Shown: positions 12,237 to 21,417 of the stretch, one piece after another
Layout of the letters: each line of letters opens with the position of its first letter
Numbering within the stretch: the stretch's first letter is position 1
Assembly (NCBI GenBank): GCA_027080725.1
Contig: JALWRC010000040.1
Span: 1 to 64,000, forward strand
Reading direction: 5' to 3'
Source: Saprospiraceae bacterium
Lineage (GTDB): Bacteria > Bacteroidota > Bacteroidia > Chitinophagales > Saprospiraceae
DNA length: 64,000 nucleotides
Notes under the pieces: model-generated
What the model was told of the DNA's origin: nothing
Databases searched by the model: none
The model's input: only the letters and a program-made list of their open reading frames with translations
Position numbers and translations under genes: made by a program

Positions 12237-12635
12237 ATGAACTATACTTTCGACGAATCTTCAGGAGTAGAGGGCACCGCTTCGCAATTCTTTAGATTAC
12301 AAGAAGAACTCGACACACTAAAACCCCTTTTGTCCAAAGTCGTAGATGAAGTCCTCAAGAGTGCGGTCAGCAAATACCCCATTCTGGTCATTCATCAGGA
12401 GAAAAATCTCGATTTGGGAGTCCCCGTGTACAATGCCGTAGGAACCGGCAACAAATGGAATGTCCACATCTCCACCTTAGAAGACTTCTACAAAAAAGGC
12501 CTTATCAAGCCGGACAAAATTGACGCATTTAGACGGCTTTACAAGGACCCCAAAGACTGGTTTACCCTCTTTGTGTTGAGCGACCTCGGCGCCCAATTTA
12601 TCTTCATCTCCCGGTCGAATGCTAAAAAGAATTAG
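12237..12635 (+). CDS. conserved hypothetical protein, 132 aa
   Basis: 132 residues, predicted cytosolic: no signal peptide or membrane helix. It has an N-terminal helix-rich part (FFRLQEELDTLKPLLSKVVDEV) and then a mixed alpha/beta stretch with PILVIHQEK, KWNVHISTLEDFYKKGLI, and the end DWFTLFVLSDLGAQFIFISR. It looks like a small conserved Bacteroidota protein, but I cannot name its function. It follows rlmD by 37 bp in the same direction and is probably the last gene of the PorE-like / rlmD / 132-aa transcript. Codon usage is like its neighbours, so I take it as real. Confidence 0.75.
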   Translation: MNYTFDESSGVEGTASQFFRLQEELDTLKPLLSKVVDEVLKSAVSKYPILVIHQEKNLDLGVPVYNAVGTGNKWNVHISTLEDFYKKGLIKPDKIDAFRRLYKDPKDWFTLFVLSDLGAQFIFISRSNAKKN

Positions 12636-12946
12636 CAAAACCTGGAACATAAACAGGTGTATTCCAAAATCTATTCGTTGCCATTATCCGTCAGCTCGAA
12701 CTTTTTCCGTCCGTTTTAACGGACGGATTAAAGATACAACATATTGTTATTCTCCGCTTCCAAGTCTTCCTTCGTCAGCTTTGGAGTCGGAGTTTTTACG
12801 GCATGATAGAGCAACTGCCAACCCTTCCCACGGTTAAAACCGTAGCCTATGTCAGCCCATGTTTGACGCCCCGGTACAGTTAAAGATCGCTTCGGTTAAT
12901 AGGGGCGGAGCTTCGTCCCTGTAGCACTATTTTTACACACTCCACA
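12636..12946. other. 311-bp convergent gap with three hairpins
   Basis: No gene seen. Three inverted repeats: a perfect 10-bp stem with 2-nt loop, TCCGTCCGTT-tt-AACGGACGGA (12706-12727); ACGGTT-aa-AACCGT (12830-12843); and a near-perfect 10-bp stem with two G-T pairs at 12901-12920. The first two share a GTTTTAAC core. They lie between the ends of two convergent genes and probably stop transcription from both sides, although T-tracts are weak. Confidence 0.5.
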
Positions 12947-14764
12947 TCATTCTCCCACCACCACCTTCACGCTCTTTATCCCCGTCTCGTAATGCGCCAC
13001 CACCACATAGAAGCCGGCAGGCACTCCGGACAACCGGAACCGGTACTCCCCGGGGTTTTCTCCCGGCTCAGCCCGGCGCACCACCTTGCCGGACAGGTCA
13101 TACAGCCGTACCTCTTGCGGAGACTCCGGCCCGCTCACCCACGCCTTCAACAGGCCGGGAGTATAGCTCGCACGCATCCCCTTATATCCCTCCGGCACAT
13201 CAATCACTCCGTTCTTCGGGTCGATCTTTACCCGCGCCACAAAGATATTAAAGGGCTTACCATACTCCTCCTTATCTCCATATGGATTGGTTAGGGTATG
13301 GCCTGCTAAATCAAATTCAGTGGAGCCATAATAACCCGTCATTATGATTTCATTCTTTCCAATTATTCCTGTAGGGCTGGGGTCATCATGTCCGGCGCCT
13401 CCATAGCTGTATGAGAAATCCAGCTTTCCATCTTTAGAATAACGGGTAAGTACCGCATCGTAATCCCTATCAGAACTATTCTGATATTTCCGGTACAAGG
13501 TATCCCCCTGGATGATGATCGTATCCCGGTTAAAACTCGACTTGAGATAGATATTATCTTCGTCGTCAATAGCAATCTCTTCTCCTAAATAAGCATTGCC
13601 AAGTGCCAGGGTATGGGCCCAAACCACATCTCCATCCGGAGTTAGTTTTGCCAGATACGAGGTATAGTACCAGTATTTTTCATTTCTATTATAAATCGTA
13701 TCCCCATCCAATATCATATAATGGCCTCTAAATGCACCATTGAGATATACATTGTCCTCGCTATCCACACGGGTATCATAACTGATTTGGGTACTAATTA
13801 TCTTCTCCCCCACGATGAGGAACTTTGACCATTGGTATTGGCCGTCGGCATTGAGGTAGATGACAAAGCCGCTTTCGTTTTGATCCGGTGGTACGAAGTC
13901 GTACTCCAGTACCGTGTCCTGGAGGTATATCCGCTTATCCGGTCCATCATTTAAGACCGTACCGGTTATCCACACATCTCCCTTGCGATTGGTCCCGATC
14001 GAATACGGTGCAAAAAAATTTTGACCTTTGTACGCCCGCCCATATAGAGCATAGGACCAGAGGGGAGTTCCGTCCAAGGTCCATTTGACCAAATAGACCC
14101 CATAGAAAAAGGTGGTGTCCCGGGGCCTCCGGATGATATAATCCCCAAAACGGATTTGCTTGGAGTAACTTTTAATTACTGTATAAAGACAGTCGTGAAA
14201 GGTATCCACCTTGATAGCTTGCATAGAGTTAACCGAAAATCCGGTGTCCACCTCCTCCGATACCCGCGAATAGAGCAAACGGCCGGTAGGGTCGAATTTG
14301 ACAAATACAGCTCGCTCCTTATACTCGCTGGTGTCCTCTCCGCGAACCGTATCCCGCCCGTACAACAAATAACGCCCTCCAAGAAACCCGGCTAAATAGA
14401 GATTCCCCTCCTTATCCGTATCAACATAGGTGTATCCGGGTAACGCATTGCGGCTGTATATGGACTTGGCATATAGGACCCGTCCTTCCGGTGATATCTT
14501 GGCGACATAGGCAGCAATAGAAATATCCTCACTTGACAGTACAGAGTCCTGAATCAAAAGAGGATAGTCAAAAAAATTTCCCGTAATATAAGCATTATTG
14601 TAAGGATCCACAGCCATGCTATTGATAAACTCATGGCTTTTGCCCTCCGACTGGAGCACCCATCGTACATCTATCTGAGCCGGGACGGAGGTGGAAAGTA
14701 GAGAAAGTAAGAAGAAGAGAAATAGCGCGGCCTCCCAGCGGAGTATATTGTTTTGTTTTTTCAT
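12947..14764 (-). CDS. T9SS-exported SBBP-like beta-propeller protein
   Basis: 605 residues. Signal peptide (ALFLFFLLSLLSTSVPAQ), then repeating blades of about 50-60 residues with the pattern 'D...N.Y.TG.F' and 'G....W....' (DPYNNAYITGNF, DKEGNLYLAGFLGG, NRKGDVWITGTV, DSEDNVYLNGAF, DDEDNIYLKSSF), as in SBBP/NHL-like repeat proteins. It ends in a T9SS sorting domain (EVRLYDLSGKVVR ... GFYVVVAHYETGIKSVKVVV). Probably surface-exposed or released; function unknown, with no catalytic motif seen. A terminator separates it from the large gene upstream, so the two may be independent units. Confidence 0.82.
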   Translation of the reverse strand: MKKQNNILRWEAALFLFFLLSLLSTSVPAQIDVRWVLQSEGKSHEFINSMAVDPYNNAYITGNFFDYPLLIQDSVLSSEDISIAAYVAKISPEGRVLYAKSIYSRNALPGYTYVDTDKEGNLYLAGFLGGRYLLYGRDTVRGEDTSEYKERAVFVKFDPTGRLLYSRVSEEVDTGFSVNSMQAIKVDTFHDCLYTVIKSYSKQIRFGDYIIRRPRDTTFFYGVYLVKWTLDGTPLWSYALYGRAYKGQNFFAPYSIGTNRKGDVWITGTVLNDGPDKRIYLQDTVLEYDFVPPDQNESGFVIYLNADGQYQWSKFLIVGEKIISTQISYDTRVDSEDNVYLNGAFRGHYMILDGDTIYNRNEKYWYYTSYLAKLTPDGDVVWAHTLALGNAYLGEEIAIDDEDNIYLKSSFNRDTIIIQGDTLYRKYQNSSDRDYDAVLTRYSKDGKLDFSYSYGGAGHDDPSPTGIIGKNEIIMTGYYGSTEFDLAGHTLTNPYGDKEEYGKPFNIFVARVKIDPKNGVIDVPEGYKGMRASYTPGLLKAWVSGPESPQEVRLYDLSGKVVRRAEPGENPGEYRFRLSGVPAGFYVVVAHYETGIKSVKVVVGE

Positions 14765-14793
14765 ATTGAGTCTGTTTTTATGTCAGAGTAAAA

Positions 14794-14821
14794 GACCAAG
14801 GGAGCTTCCACTCCCTTGGTC
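14794..14821 (-). terminator. intrinsic terminator after the 1469-aa protein gene
   Basis: A perfect 11-bp stem GACCAAGGGAG / CTCCCTTGGTC with a 6-nt loop. Read on the minus strand it lies 16 bp after the stop at 14838 and is followed by TTTTA. The T-run is short, so some read-through into the next gene is possible. Confidence 0.75.
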
Positions 14822-14837
14822 CTATCACAAAAGGTAT

Positions 14838-17800
14838 TTATCTCACGATGACGGCTCTCGAACTGAGCACTTGATCCCCGGTCGATACCCGGATGATGTA
14901 CACCCCTTCATCCCATGTATGTGTATCCAATACATGCGTGCGGCTGTCTTCAGTCAGCTTCTTGTTGAGGAGGAGCTGTCCGCGGGTATTGTAAACGGCG
15001 TATCCGGACAAAAAGGCGTCCTTCCCTCCGGCCAGTTGGAGGCGAAGTGCATCTTGTGCCGGGTTGGGGACAAGCCGCAGACGGAGGTGGCTAAAATGCT
15101 CCACCAATGCAGCTCTGCGCTGTCCGTCCTGACATTCGTAGAGGGGTACGTAGGTATCCATCATTCCTGCCGACAAACCCCGGGCGATGGCCACGGCACG
15201 GCCGTACTCTTCCGGGCATAGGTGTGCGATGTTGTCAATATCGCTATAATCAGCCGGGTCGAGTGTCGTGCCCGATAGGGCCTTGTTGAGGATGCCTATC
15301 ATCTTGTACTCCTCTGCATCCCATGGGGTAGCAGGAGTAGATAAGCTGCTAATAGAAGCATCGATTTGCTGCAACAATATCTGGTCCGATGCATCATCGA
15401 GGCCGGTTTGGAGCTCGATGGATTGTTCGAGCGTGGTGATTTGGTCGTAAAGTACGTCCAGTTCGGCGGTGTACTGTCCCTGCTCCACCGGGTCCGAAGT
15501 GGACGATAGCAATGTTTCGAGGCTGTCTGCAGCATCGGACCAGGATTCGATTTGGTCGTAGTCCGCCTCCAGGGCAAGGGCATGCTCCTCCTGTAGCCGG
15601 CTCAGACTATCCATGAGCAGATAAATATCCGTGACCTGTCCCATCCATCCGGCTTGGTGCACTTGATAAAACGAATCCAACGCAGGGTAACTCGTCCTCC
15701 ACTCCGGATGCGTGGCGACCAATAGATAAATAGAGCTCTCGAGATTGGCCCGCTCGGCGGCGGTCATCCCGTTCATCGCTGCGCTGTCTGCAAGGGTGAC
15801 GGCATAACCGGCGGCAGCCTCCAGCGGAGTCATCAGCTCTATGAGATGCTCTTCGCTTCCTCCTCCTCCACCGCCACCGCCGGATTGGCATGGGTCCTGG
15901 AGATTGGGGGCCGTTCCGTTAGCCACAACCATATCTTCCGGATGCCTATATGGAAAGTGCACATGGCCGGAATTGGTGCCGGAGGGGGCTGAGAAATAGC
16001 AGTCTTTAACTTTACCAGGGTTCAAATGCTTTACTTCCACATCTGTAGGCTCTTCGTCATGAATTTGTTTTAACCACTCGTTGTAATCGGTATGCGTCTG
16101 AGCACCCGTCTCTGCATCTCTGTTGTAAAGGTTAGAAAAGTCTATACCCAGATTAAAATAGTTGCGTGCAATATAGGACCCTGTCGTACCCTTACAATTG
16201 TCATTGATTTGCATGGATACCAGGTTCTTCGTAAGGGTATTGCCGATGACATTATTGCGGGGTGATTCTACCAGTCGTATGCCGGCACTTCCCTTGGAGA
16301 CATTATTGCATTTGATCCGGTTGGCCTGTCCGTTGAGCAACTCGATACCCGGCTTGTTGAGACTAAGTACGATTGTATTCTTTTCTATAAGCGAATATCG
16401 TATCTGACTGAACAAAATGCCTGCCCCGATATCATTGTTTTGATTAGTGATGTTATTCTTGGTGACCTTTATCCTTTGTCTGCGGTCCACCCCACTGGTG
16501 ACGGACACTCCCATGGTCGATACTCCACCGCTTACGGTGATATCATTGTCATAGACCGACAAGCCGTTATTGGAGCTCGAGCCAATTTTAAGGGACACTC
16601 CGAAACAGGTGGCTTCCGTACCGGACATATTCATCAGATTTCTTTTGATACTCGAGCGCCGGTGCAGTCTGGTGGGGCCTTCCAGGTTAATCCGATAACC
16701 CATCGCCACTGTAGTATGGGTGATGGAGGCTTTGTCCTGGCTGGCATCCGCACGTAGTAAGACCTGACCTCCTCCCGAGAGCTCCATATCCACAGAGATC
16801 TTCATGTTGTCAAACCACATATAGTCCATGTTGAGGTATTTGTACGCAGAAACATCCCGAACAAAGTATATCCCGGTCCCCCGCTCCAGACCTTGTGCGG
16901 AAACCCTGAGGTTTTGCAAAAGGAAGTTGCGTACTTTGAGTTTGGTATTAAACACATCAAATCCATGTGAGTATCCATAGATCAGATTATGGGGATGCTC
17001 GACATTATGTGGAAACGAAACACCATAACTCACATTGTCCAGAGTAATCGCTGTGCTGTAGCAACATCCACATACCTGATTGCAGTTGTCCGGATTAATT
17101 ATCTCGTTATTATAGAAATTATGGATGACTCCATGCTGATCTTCCCAATAAATGCACTGTTTGTTTTCCAAAAAAGTACAATCCGTGATATCGAGATGGG
17201 TCAGCTGGGCTCCGGATATAGGCAATCTAAGCATTGTCTCTGCATCATCAATATCCGCATTATGCCAATTCAAAGTACTTCCTGCCTTGGCGATAATACC
17301 GGTCCACCTGCAGCATTGAAAGTCTGTTGAATACCGTTGTGCGCTTTGGATTAATGCGCCTTCGAGTTGAAACAAATGGCGATCGACCGTAATGGTGGCC
17401 CCTTGGCCCATATTCCAAATACCCCCCTGGAATATGGCATCTTCATTAATAATCAGATTTACTCCCTGTTCGATAAAAATAGGTATATCAGCATCTGAAG
17501 CTCGATCGAGCAGGTCGTGTATCGTTTCATCTTGAACGAATTCAAAATCCGACCCTACGAGGTGATTGCGCACCAGGTCGGTTAATTTGACCTGCGCTCC
17601 GGCTACCCCAATATGTGCACCTCCCGGATAAGGTAGACAATCAGAATAAGAATCAATTAGGTCGTCTTTACAATATACCTTATGGGTAATGCATACCTCA
17701 CCGTTTGAAATAAAATCTGTAAAAATATAAGGAGGAGGTTGGTAGCCTCTATAAATAGTCCCGTCACTATATATCCAAACATGGTGAATATCCGGATCAG

Positions 17801-19247
17801 TAGGAGGAGGAGTACAAGTTGGATCCGGTTGGATGGCGTACTTTATACATGTAATCGGTGAAGTAATAATAATATCAAAGTCAGCAGATATCGTACAGCA
17901 TTCGCACGTTTCATCATTAAATTCTTCGGTAAAACAGCATTTAAATGTTCTTCCATCTTCAATAGTTACGGTAATACAGATTTTAAACTTACCAGTACCT
18001 CTGTACTTAAAGTCCAAAAAATTTTGGTCTGTAGTGGCATTAAATGGCGGAGGAGGATCTTGTAAATTACTATTCAAGGCGGTAATCACCCAATCATAGG
18101 ACACCGCTATATCCTCCAGGCTGTGCGAAAAGATCAGCCGCCTGCAACAGTCACTCTCATCAAAATCTGGTCCCAGATTGAGATCCGAACACTCCTCGAT
18201 GGCAAGATCACCACAAGGATCACAAGGAGGGGTTATCACCTTACAGCACTCGATGAGTTTGCCATTGGCCAAGAAAGACACACAGACTTTATACTCTCGA
18301 TTGTCAATAAACAAATAGTGTACGCTTGGCTCTGAAGTAGTGGTTGTAATAACTTCCTCCCCCGTGCTGTTGATGGTAAAATGCCAATTATAGCTGGTCA
18401 CGCCTTCATAGGGATGGGTGACGAGCACTTCATCACAACAGGCTTTACCATCGGGGTAAGGCTCACAGAGACTGATGTTCACTTCGTCACAGGGGTCACA
18501 CGTAATATCCACGGTTTGGCAGCACGTATGATAACATCGATCTCCTGAGCCCTGCTCTTGAATGCCCTCGATATTACAGTCCATGCAGTTGTCACTCCAT
18601 GTTAAGCACACCTCAAAGGTGCCGGACATCGAGTAAGTATGAACAGTATTAGCAGACCATGTGTCATCAAACTTCGATATGGTGCCATCCCCCCAGTTGA
18701 TGACGATATCATCTATCTCTACATCACATGAGGGCTGCGCGAAATAAGCCACCAGTTTGCAGCCGGAAGGGGTTAGATTAAACAGCCATTTATCACAGTA
18801 AGTTTCACAGGTGAGCTGATGAACGAAATTCGAACACACAAAATCTCCGCATACCAGCTTCACTTCTATTCCTCCCGTTCCGGTAATGGTCATGCAAGCC
18901 GTTTGGCCGGAAGCGGAGGCTATAACCTGATTATTCCGCAATATGGTCCACTGTGGGGTACATTCTCCACTGGTTCCCGCAGAAACACATATTTCAAACT
19001 GCGGTGGATTGGCATCAGGATCAAGACACTTAACCTTGGTTATAAAGTTAGGACAAGGAGCCGAAGCGCTCATATACGCTTTTTCTGTAGCAAAGGAGGC
19101 GTATTCTTTACATTCCAGGAAAGAACACCATTGCTTTGCAGGGTTCACTCCCTCTCCTGTATTAACAATGGGAGTAACACCATATATAGGTGGCACCCCG
19201 GACGCAAATGAGTATCCGGTATTCCAAATACACATTACAATAATCAT
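14838..19247 (-). CDS. large T9SS-exported Cys-rich PKD / parallel beta-helix protein
   Basis: 1469 residues. A short signal peptide (MIIVMCIWNTGYSFASG) is followed by a long Cys-rich region (about 40-520) with several PKD-like blocks (VNWGDGTISKF-like, SYNWHFTIN, SYDWVITAL) and CC pairs, then a right-handed parallel beta-helix region (about 560-1010) rich in N-x-I/F turns (YSLIEKNTI, NNVIGNTLT), a Gly8 linker near 1130 and a helical region. It ends in a T9SS sorting domain (LRLVPNPAQDALRL ... GVYIIRVSTGD). Probably a surface adhesin- or lyase-like protein; no active site is identifiable. The many Cys suggest disulfides. An (AT)7 tract abuts the start codon. Confidence 0.85.
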   Translation of the reverse strand: MIIVMCIWNTGYSFASGVPPIYGVTPIVNTGEGVNPAKQWCSFLECKEYASFATEKAYMSASAPCPNFITKVKCLDPDANPPQFEICVSAGTSGECTPQWTILRNNQVIASASGQTACMTITGTGGIEVKLVCGDFVCSNFVHQLTCETYCDKWLFNLTPSGCKLVAYFAQPSCDVEIDDIVINWGDGTISKFDDTWSANTVHTYSMSGTFEVCLTWSDNCMDCNIEGIQEQGSGDRCYHTCCQTVDITCDPCDEVNISLCEPYPDGKACCDEVLVTHPYEGVTSYNWHFTINSTGEEVITTTTSEPSVHYLFIDNREYKVCVSFLANGKLIECCKVITPPCDPCGDLAIEECSDLNLGPDFDESDCCRRLIFSHSLEDIAVSYDWVITALNSNLQDPPPPFNATTDQNFLDFKYRGTGKFKICITVTIEDGRTFKCCFTEEFNDETCECCTISADFDIIITSPITCIKYAIQPDPTCTPPPTDPDIHHVWIYSDGTIYRGYQPPPYIFTDFISNGEVCITHKVYCKDDLIDSYSDCLPYPGGAHIGVAGAQVKLTDLVRNHLVGSDFEFVQDETIHDLLDRASDADIPIFIEQGVNLIINEDAIFQGGIWNMGQGATITVDRHLFQLEGALIQSAQRYSTDFQCCRWTGIIAKAGSTLNWHNADIDDAETMLRLPISGAQLTHLDITDCTFLENKQCIYWEDQHGVIHNFYNNEIINPDNCNQVCGCCYSTAITLDNVSYGVSFPHNVEHPHNLIYGYSHGFDVFNTKLKVRNFLLQNLRVSAQGLERGTGIYFVRDVSAYKYLNMDYMWFDNMKISVDMELSGGGQVLLRADASQDKASITHTTVAMGYRINLEGPTRLHRRSSIKRNLMNMSGTEATCFGVSLKIGSSSNNGLSVYDNDITVSGGVSTMGVSVTSGVDRRQRIKVTKNNITNQNNDIGAGILFSQIRYSLIEKNTIVLSLNKPGIELLNGQANRIKCNNVSKGSAGIRLVESPRNNVIGNTLTKNLVSMQINDNCKGTTGSYIARNYFNLGIDFSNLYNRDAETGAQTHTDYNEWLKQIHDEEPTDVEVKHLNPGKVKDCYFSAPSGTNSGHVHFPYRHPEDMVVANGTAPNLQDPCQSGGGGGGGGSEEHLIELMTPLEAAAGYAVTLADSAAMNGMTAAERANLESSIYLLVATHPEWRTSYPALDSFYQVHQAGWMGQVTDIYLLMDSLSRLQEEHALALEADYDQIESWSDAADSLETLLSSTSDPVEQGQYTAELDVLYDQITTLEQSIELQTGLDDASDQILLQQIDASISSLSTPATPWDAEEYKMIGILNKALSGTTLDPADYSDIDNIAHLCPEEYGRAVAIARGLSAGMMDTYVPLYECQDGQRRAALVEHFSHLRLRLVPNPAQDALRLQLAGGKDAFLSGYAVYNTRGQLLLNKKLTEDSRTHVLDTHTWDEGVYIIRVSTGDQVLSSRAVIVR

Positions 19248-19259
19248 ATATATATATAT
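19246..19259. repeat. (AT)7 dinucleotide tract at a start codon
   Basis: Seven AT units; on the minus strand the last unit plus the next G forms the ATG start of the 1469-residue protein. Copy-number change would not shift the frame but would alter spacing between the leader and the start codon. Confidence 0.7.
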
Positions 19260-19270
19260 GAGTTACTGCT

Positions 19271-19292
19271 ACTTAGACTAAGGCGTCTAAGT
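19271..19292. other. 8-bp inverted repeat in the leader of the 1469-aa gene
   Basis: ACTTAGAC-taaggc-GTCTAAGT, a perfect palindromic hairpin 24 bp before the start at 19247. It could be an operator or an mRNA hairpin close to the ribosome site. The rest of the gap up to 19785 is AT-rich; the only other structure I see is an 8-bp inverted repeat TAACATAT / ATATGTTA at 19463-19491. Nothing in the gap looks like a gene. Confidence 0.45.
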
Positions 19293-19785
19293 CTTCCGAA
19301 AATCTTTAAATTGGTCAACATAGTAAAACAAGTTTAGGGTTAAAAAATAATAATTCCGTGCCGGACAAATACGGATCAGAAGGGGGGATAGGATGTTTTT
19401 CTACGTATTTGTCGTTATTTAACCGCCAAGATAAGGTTATATTCCGAACTAACCAAAAACTTTAACATATAATATTACAAATAATATGTTATTACGGGGT
19501 AATGATGCCTGCATTTTGTGTCGTTTTGTGCTATACACAGAAGTAAAAATACGAACGTCATACAACGTTCTCCTCCGGATAGATTGTAAAAAAAAACACC
19601 TTCACAAGCAGCATTTTTGTAACTTGTGGTGTCTAATTATATGTGGATTCTTTAGGTATGTTGCGCTGAGGGGAGAGTATGGTTATTGTGCATTGGTACA
19701 CGTTTAATGCTAAAATAGTATGACCTTATGTATTCATCTCCTTGCAACTGATACGTCTCTGATTATTAATATAAACCGTTGCGAA

Positions 19786-21417
19786 ATGAAGTTGCATTCC
19801 CTTTTACTTGCCTTTATGGTCACCCTGCTCTCTTCCCCCACATCCGCTAAGGTGTTTTATGTGGATCCGGCACATGGCAGTGCCTCCGGAGACGGGAGCG
19901 CGTCACGTCCCTGGAAAACATTGGAGGAGGTCGTGCACAACAACCTGATTGAAAGCTTTAGTTATGTCCTACCTTACGACCCGAAAAATCCGGCGACAAA
20001 GGTGAAAAACCCGGGAGCACCGGTAAAAGCCGGTGACACGATCCTGTTGTACAATGGGCTGCATGGCACCCTCGAACTCCAGGATTACATCAATTCGAGT
20101 ACCATCACGATTATGGCGTTCCCCGGTCAGATACCGGTATTAAAGCGAGTCCACCTTCAGGCGTGTAAGAACTGGGTGTTGGACGGGTTATTGGTGAGTT
20201 CGGAACCCTACAGCACTTATATTAAGAGTACCCTCGTTTTCCTGGAATCACACAAATGGCATGGACCGGTTCATTCTGTTACCGTCCAAAATTGTATTAT
20301 CTACAGTGCCCGGCAACCATGGACAAAAGCATCCGACTGGAACAGCAAAATGAGTAACGGCATAATAGCCAGCGGGGACTCTATCCGCATCCTCAATAAC
20401 ACCATTTCAAACATCAACTTTGGAATAGCGCCTGTCGGTAACCATACTCAGGTTATAAACAACACCATTACCAATTTTGCCGGCGATGGTATTCGCATAT
20501 TGGGTTCCAACGGAATTTACCGCAACAACATCGTAATGAACTGTTATAAAGTCAATAGCAACCACGATGATGGCATACAGTCTTACACCACCGGAGGACT
20601 ACGCGTTGACTCCAATATCATCGAGGGCAACATCATTCTCAACTATACCGACCCGGATCAGCCCCTTTTGGGTCCATTACAGGGAATTGGGTGTTTTGAC
20701 GGGCCTTTCAACGATTGGATCATCCGGAACAACATTGTAATCGTAGATCACTGGCACGGGATTTCCCTGTACGGAGCCCATCGATGTACCTTTGTCAACA
20801 ACACCGTTTTGGACCCATCACCCGGTGTACGTCCCGGCCCGGCCTGGATAAAAATCGAAAACAACAAAAACGGAACAAACAGCGATCACTGCATTGTCAA
20901 GAACAATATTACCAATACCCTTGCCATCAATGCGAAGACGACAATAGTGGGAAACAATATCCTTATGCGCACCAATCAACAATACCAACGCAATTTTGTG
21001 GATTACACGGCCTTTGACTTTCACTTGCTGAAAAACAGCATTTGTGTGGACAAAGCCGATGATCTTTATGCTCCGGCGGTTGACCGGGACGGAACCCCAA
21101 GGCCACAAGGGCAACATGCCGACATCGGAGCCTACGAGTATCAGGTACCCACCGGCATCTTTCACATCAAAAACAGGGGATTTCACGTGTCTCCCAACCC
21201 CGCATCTGACCGGATTTATATATCCGGAAGCGAGGGGCAGTTTGATGTGACTATGGTGGATCTTTCCGGGAGAATTGCCCTCGTTAAAACGGGCGTTTCT
21301 TTGCCCGGATATTTAGACGTAACTGCGTTAAAACACGGGGTTTATGCCGTAAACATAGCTTCTCATGGAAGGAAGATAGCCGGCAATTTCATCTGTTTGC
21401 TTGTTATTGTATTTTAA
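19786..21417 (+). CDS. T9SS-exported right-handed parallel beta-helix protein
   Basis: 543 residues from the ATG at 19786, which begins a signal peptide (MKLHSLLLAFMVTLLSSPTSA); the open frame extends to 19720. The mature start KVFYVDPAHGSASGDG, followed by PWKTLEE and AGDTILLYNGLH, is typical of DUF1565-type beta-helix proteins (polysaccharide-lyase-like). Helix rungs follow (SIRILNNTISNI, THVI-like NNTITNFAGDGIRILG, IYRNNIVMNC). It ends with a T9SS sorting domain (FHVSPNPASDRIYIS), but the last strand reads GNFICLLVIVF rather than the usual basic end. Carbohydrate binding or cleavage is possible; catalytic residues are not identified. Confidence 0.82.
   Translation: MKLHSLLLAFMVTLLSSPTSAKVFYVDPAHGSASGDGSASRPWKTLEEVVHNNLIESFSYVLPYDPKNPATKVKNPGAPVKAGDTILLYNGLHGTLELQDYINSSTITIMAFPGQIPVLKRVHLQACKNWVLDGLLVSSEPYSTYIKSTLVFLESHKWHGPVHSVTVQNCIIYSARQPWTKASDWNSKMSNGIIASGDSIRILNNTISNINFGIAPVGNHTQVINNTITNFAGDGIRILGSNGIYRNNIVMNCYKVNSNHDDGIQSYTTGGLRVDSNIIEGNIILNYTDPDQPLLGPLQGIGCFDGPFNDWIIRNNIVIVDHWHGISLYGAHRCTFVNNTVLDPSPGVRPGPAWIKIENNKNGTNSDHCIVKNNITNTLAINAKTTIVGNNILMRTNQQYQRNFVDYTAFDFHLLKNSICVDKADDLYAPAVDRDGTPRPQGQHADIGAYEYQVPTGIFHIKNRGFHVSPNPASDRIYISGSEGQFDVTMVDLSGRIALVKTGVSLPGYLDVTALKHGVYAVNIASHGRKIAGNFICLLVIVF

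Follow-up and report, generated by a model that had tools for sequence, protein, structure and literature searches.

The subject of this analysis is a stretch of 64,000 nucleotides from a Saprospiraceae bacterium (assembly GCA_027080725.1, contig JALWRC010000040.1, positions 1 to 64,000), referred to below as the window, and in particular a large gene whose start adjoins a run of AT dinucleotides. All window features given below lie on the minus strand. Read from an ATG within the AT run, the coding sequence (CDS) spans positions 14838-19247 and, according to its translation and to profile matches, encodes a beta-helix protein of 1469 amino acids (aa) secreted by the type IX secretion system (T9SS). 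We propose that this gene, the first of a pair, is probably a contingency locus that makes a giant T9SS-secreted beta-helix surface protein phase-variable.

The AT tract and two candidate start codons

The open reading frame (ORF) of 1469 codons reported in a preliminary description of this DNA was confirmed, and the sequence also bears out that its ATG is composed of the final AT of an exact (AT)7 tract plus G. The tract occupies positions 19246-19259. The sequence ATATATATATATAT occurs once in the 64-kb window and in none of 100 shuffles, (AT)7 is the sole simple repeat above the scan thresholds in the 64 kb, and the 3.80-Mb genome to which the window belongs has four AT tracts of seven or more units. 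With uniform placement, the probability that such a tract falls by chance within 100 bp of this particular start is about 2e-4. The true chance is higher than this, since AT runs are found preferentially in intergenic DNA. The other three long AT tracts (L019 1501-1522, L025 1501-1521 and L024 1501-1514) are located approximately 170-280 nt upstream of lipoprotein-like genes, in related intergenic sequence. Two near-identical copies of this intergenic sequence differ by one unit, (AT)11 against (AT)10, which is the sole length difference over approximately 475 aligned bases with four mismatches. By analogy with this other sequence and its longer tract, the AT tracts of this genome may change length.

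The preliminary description had suggested that a tract touching the start codon could alter translation from that start. This part of the proposal falls: the in-tract ATG is re-formed whatever the length of the tract, and therefore the tract cannot frameshift the ORF that begins at 19247. Two features had been overlooked, namely a TAA directly before the tract in the frame of the ORF and a further upstream ATG (19319-19321), 62 nt before the tract, which places the tract between this codon and the ORF. By comparison with 13 other array-bearing members of the family described below, this ATG is the proposed start codon, the 62 nt from it to the tract (19260-19321) would encode a basic n-region, MLTNLKIFGRLRRLSLSSSNS, and the tract would be a phase switch between ATG 19321 and the core of the signal peptide. 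At the sequenced (AT)7 the frame from ATG 19321 reaches a stop after 25 codons and is out of frame with the ORF. When tract lengths of n = 4-12 units were tried in silico, the frame was open at n = 6, 9 and 12, with a product consisting of MLTNLKIFGRLRRLSLSSSNS, then (YI)n encoded by the tract, and then MIIVMCIWNTGYSFASG, in other words a basic n-region and a lengthened core. As (AT)7 closes this frame, the sequenced assembly appears to show the OFF phase.

The proposed mechanism is as follows. Translation would begin at ATG 19321, and the number of repeats between this codon and the hydrophobic core of the Sec signal peptide would decide the frame. Slippage to 6, 9 or 12 AT units, which presumably occurs in cells, would fuse the signal peptide to the mature protein, giving in the ON phase a leader with a basic n-region and with (YI)n added to its core; this product would be exported and placed on the surface by the T9SS. 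With 7 units, and a frame that stops after 25 codons, the in-tract ATG would yield at most a product with a short, uncharged leader.

The simplest alternative is that the gene starts at the in-tract ATG and nothing switches, the AT run being merely part of an AT-rich, unstructured ribosome-entry leader of the kind that is usual in Bacteroidota. The ORF is indeed open from 19247 at any tract length, and a cleavage-like S-F-A site follows the in-tract leader. However, this leader, MIIVMCIWNTGYSFASG, has no lysine or arginine (K/R) before a core with a 10-residue hydropathy of 1.89. K/R before the core are also missing in 6 of 73 controls, all of which have stronger cores (none below 2.18), and a core as weak as that of the in-tract product is found in 2 of the 73; no control combines both properties. 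Judged by inspection, the putative Sec signal peptide looks weak from the in-tract ATG and normal from 19321 at n = 6 or 9. In addition, none of the 40 other T9SS genes taken from this genome has any array in the 5' stretch examined. The family to which this gene belongs does have arrays at this very spot. We therefore regard an in-tract start without switching as unlikely.

Repeat arrays in the protein family

Relatives of the protein were found at E ≤ 1e-10 in 28 of 398 genomes of the taxonomic family, the genome of the window included, some of them by the C-terminal part alone. The scan for tandem arrays covered 672,981 bases and 407 ORFs; its thresholds were fixed after the first arrays had been seen, were identical for members and controls, and left out homopolymers. 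Eight partial genes and ORFs within 60 nt of the end of a stretch were excluded before counting, L077 was counted as a close member though it matches only in its C-terminal half, and the array of L096 enters only the survey of frames given below. An array at the 5' end of the gene was present in 11 of 18 close members when the window is counted, and in 11 of 19 when the later-found L139 is added. The corresponding figures are 2 of 15 for the more distant relatives (p = 0.02), 4 of 346 for other ORFs and 0 of 77 for the T9SS controls, in which the coding 5' end was considered. The Fisher values for close members are 1.3e-13 against the other ORFs and 4e-10 against the T9SS controls, and with the window dropped and L139 added (10 of 18) they are 4e-12 and 4e-9, respectively; because the species are related, and the array label on a tree of 17 of the 18 requires three changes, these values overstate independence.

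The T9SS controls were 80 other T9SS genes, 40 from the genome of the window and 40 from genome G061, taken from the top of the list of sorting-domain matches with open frames longer than 400 aa; three stretches are cut by contig ends, which leaves 77. Four of the G061 controls have arrays 130-360 nt upstream of the open frame. Three G061 genes had been left out because they fall in stretches that the scan already included (C223, 571 aa; C107, 1006 aa; C107, 684 aa), and their restoration gives 1 of 80 by the criterion of the family count, since the 571-aa gene has a 9-bp array at the edge of its open frame, before the apparent ATG. The same gene is one of the four positives among the 346 other ORFs, which are uncurated greedy calls of at least 120 aa. 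The remaining three are a doubtful 160-aa ORF and two genes of 501 aa (L087) and 404 aa (L091), in which the array seemingly precedes a normal-looking start. At L087 3847-4000, 7-bp and 9-bp arrays lie just ahead of the apparent start of the 501-aa frame, a transporter-like gene.

Of the close members, the window has (AT)7; G217, G061, G263, G338, G404, G398 and G225 have 8-mers, and G139, G396 and G179 have 7-mers. The distant members have an 11-mer (G056), (TC)15 (G061) and an 8-mer (G060). All 14 arrays thus have a unit of 2, 7, 8 or 11 bp, which shifts the frame. The majority of unit pairs diverge as much as random pairs do, but a blanket claim of unrelated units was rejected: a single base of eight separates the units of G263 and G338, and two bases separate those of G338b and G404. 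Given that the units are mostly dissimilar, it appears that fresh arrays were introduced at the site repeatedly, in some species but not in all. Turnover is also seen between sister species, with 11 copies in G404 and none in G200.

In several relatives the array lies between the ATG and the signal-peptide core, which was sought in the first 160 residues of members and the first 90 of controls. An ATG precedes the array by 3-62 nt in 14 of 14 array-bearing genes. This ATG shares the frame of the mature protein in four of the 14, or five if L096 is scored by its second ATG, and the others are out of frame; the share in frame matches random phasing, for which one third is expected (binomial p = 1.0). 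Nine of the 14 have no in-frame ATG at or before the core, compared with 4 of 77 controls. In spite of this, the frames of these nine genes are open for 644-1474 codons, three of them being cut by contig ends, and therefore the genes look switched off rather than dead.

Some members were observed only in part. Near the start of the partial member L139 (G441) are (ATT)5, a run of six T and a run of eight T; neither (ATT)5 nor the eight-T run qualifies as an array, and a stop lies between an in-frame ATG and the core. In G191 two contigs, at the start of L099 and the end of L078, break at one point within the gene, suggesting a pair of copies whose upstream parts are identical.

Taken over the family, this evidence makes it very likely that the arrays found here have been selected as switches. 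The suggestion of the preliminary description that a large surface protein undergoes phase variation is thus upheld at family level by the contrast between 11 of 18 close members and 0 of 77 T9SS controls, although the mechanism suggested there is not favoured. For the window itself we lean, with less assurance, towards (AT)7 being a working member of the switch family and its weakest example. Several observations weigh against the proposal. The source genomes of seven relatives are metagenome assemblies of Saprospiraceae, so the tract lengths they show are consensus values. In the one same-genus genome searched (G001) there was no match at E ≤ 1e-6, and it therefore offers no close comparison. 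Qualifying arrays are missing from 7 of the 18 close members and from L139. Of the nine genes that lack an in-frame ATG, three have GTG or TTG codons in frame ahead of the core. Arrays of 7-9 bp units also occur between genes in these genomes, and since the other arrays found are mostly of this size, a unit length not divisible by three is a weak argument when it stands alone. The (AT)7 of the window is shorter than all the other arrays and consists of dinucleotides, compared with 7- or 8-mers in most relatives, and its spacing of 62 nt from the ATG is the longest among the 14 genes. Finally, the leader motif ahead of 19321 is weak and post hoc. This leader (19322-19342) resembles that of several homologues (TAAC..TAAA, then ATG). 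The pattern was defined from leaders already inspected and is kept as weak support: it is present in 8 of 20 family leaders, window included, versus 6 of 77 controls, and with the ATG spacing it has 7 matches in the window versus 3.3 expected. A stricter form of the motif has no match at 19321.

According to a second alternative, the tract, with or without a neighbouring palindrome, varies the spacing of promoter or ribosome elements, so that expression is tuned and not frame-switched. The tract does lie in the 5' region, and the other three long AT tracts of the genome are located upstream of lipoprotein-like genes, where spacing effects are plausible. On the other hand, in the 13 other array-bearing members the array lies within the open frame of the protein, after an ATG. 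The palindrome that the preliminary description had noted is present as an inverted repeat with 8-bp arms and a 6-nt loop (19271-19292), 23 nt from the start codon, but there is nothing special about it. Inverted repeats of this class (8-bp arms, loop of 3-10) have 24 placements in the window against a mean of 10.6 and a range of 4-21 in Markov surrogates, a longer hairpin being counted several times; the palindrome is ordinary by count and was rejected as an operator. A scan for Sigma-70-type promoters was uninformative (16 sites versus 13.1 in shuffles) and no promoter was placed, nor was there any Rfam match at E ≤ 1 within 12500-20500. A promoter-spacing role is therefore not favoured, the tract more plausibly framing 19321 to the core, and we consider this alternative distinctly improbable. 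It is more improbable still that the arrays are neutral junk tolerated in the signal-peptide n-region: such regions are loosely constrained and 7-9-bp arrays do occur between genes, but none of the 77 T9SS genes, most of them with a signal-like N-terminus, carries an array, and out-of-frame genes would be dead, yet they are open for hundreds of codons.

The secreted protein and its partner gene

The secretion tag noted in the preliminary description was verified, as the T9SS type A C-terminal sorting domain (14847-15068) is above the cut-off in two profiles (TIGR04183, 37.6 bits, cut-off 23; PF18962, 34.1 bits, cut-off 27). The Gly8 linker is also present. The genome of the window (G000) has 143 matches to T9SS sorting domains at E ≤ 1e-5 in 3.8 Mb. 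The PKD-like blocks described earlier are less certain, since PF18911 reaches 19.6 in the window protein, under the cut-off of 27, although it is above the cut-off in 6 of 11 large relatives scanned. Structure prediction agrees with the earlier assignment of a beta-helix. In the model of residues 400-1180 (8 sequences; mean pLDDT 71) a long right-handed beta-helix is visible, with the domain at residues ~588-1032 (16152-17486; model residues ~189-633). Among the 50 VIA-align matches listed for the model, with Z of 21.9-28.6, are phage tailspikes, mannuronan epimerases, polysaccharide lyases and the PfbA adhesin; Foldseek with the same model gave no match at E ≤ 0.001. PF05048 passes in the window protein (31.6 bits, cut-off 23.6), in a region like NosD/beta-helix repeats. 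Membership of NosD itself was rejected (TIGR04247, 29.2 bits versus a cut-off of 300), and the PF05048 match is read as shared beta-helix fold. As modelled, the shared fold does not separate an enzyme from an adhesin, and it may allow attachment, glycan binding or cleavage, and escape from phages or predators alike.

Downstream lies the partner gene P0002 (12947-14764), which according to profile matches encodes a 605-aa SBBP beta-propeller protein with a T9SS tag (TIGR04183, 27.4, cut-off 23; PF18962, 19.4, below the cut-off of 27). Between the two genes, folding reveals a strong terminator-like hairpin followed by UUUU (14795-14820, approximate limits). The 82-nt stretch that contains it has a minimum free energy of -30.3 kcal/mol and z of -5.1, and the hairpin is absent from a separate list of terminator-like sites. 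Because of this hairpin, the beta-helix gene and P0002 may be only partly co-expressed. The two-gene arrangement is common in the family: 31 of the 35 loci examined, several of them partial, have a same-strand open frame downstream within approximately 60 nt or overlapping, and the exceptions are three loci near a contig end and L084, which has none. All three downstream proteins profiled (window, L063 and L070) have a T9SS-tag match above a cut-off. The partners were rejected as one homologous family, given that P0002 matches the partner of L226 but not the L222 type, which makes at least two partner types. The partner gene is apparently duplicated in tandem in L078, L099, L079, L074 and L081. 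At L087 13560-17855, a T9SS protein with a reprolysin domain is encoded in a like two-gene layout, with (TC)15 after its ATG, out of frame as assembled.

A broader proposal, which we put forward tentatively and do not expect to hold in full, is that of a phase-variable two-gene T9SS locus found across the family in Saprospiraceae. Its first gene would repeatedly re-acquire tracts at one site, from the start codon to the core, its partner would encode a beta-propeller or another secreted protein, and in the window the (YI)n of the tract would also grade the strength of export.

Known phase-variable systems and significance

Phase variation by repeat slippage is known mainly from host-adapted pathogens, and the Bacteroidota are known for DNA inversion. 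The switch of the Bacteroides thetaiotaomicron S-layer lipoprotein is a DNA inversion rather than repeat slippage, and the protein is not known to be T9SS cargo. Slippage switches in the leaders of surface proteins are already known from the opa genes of Neisseria, in which CTCTT repeats lie in the region coding for the signal peptide. The likeness is that of frame-shifting repeats within the leader of a surface protein, with translational ON/OFF control. The locus described here differs in belonging to another phylum, in the T9SS route, in having units of 2-11 bp that mostly differ between orthologues, and in an array that is mostly ahead of the core.

The simple-sequence contingency loci of Haemophilus influenzae (PMC2651432) likewise switch surface genes by simple repeats, but they are mostly tetranucleotides in a host-adapted pathogen, in contrast to the 7-/8-mers and dinucleotides of environmental Saprospiraceae. 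TAACTGA heptamer repeats are reported ahead of start codons in Beggiatoaceae, Cyanobacteria and some Bacteroidetes (PMC4679880). They too are short tandem repeats near start codons, some of them in Bacteroidetes, but they have a fixed unit, are mostly intergenic, show no pattern of gene function and were proposed to be sites for translational regulators, whereas the arrays described here vary in unit from gene to gene and lie in the reading frame of a single protein family. The S-layer lipoprotein of B. thetaiotaomicron is phase-variable (cited in PMC12578637), and is thus a likeness as a phase-variable surface protein in Bacteroidota. No report of slippage phase variation of T9SS cargo, or in Saprospiraceae, was found among the titles and openings of abstracts surveyed or in passages of PMC4679880, PMC7014623 and PMC12578637, a search that had subscription papers and preprints outside its scope.

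If the proposal is true, it would explain why several of these genes (9 of 14) have no in-frame ATG in their assemblies, and gene callers may truncate them or assign them the wrong start. Moreover, tracts that share one site and yet vary from species to species, in environmental Saprospiraceae, would be a sign that the switching of T9SS cargo is under strong selection outside a host. What the benefit of such switching might be is a matter of speculation, but it could act against phages or predators, or serve attachment.

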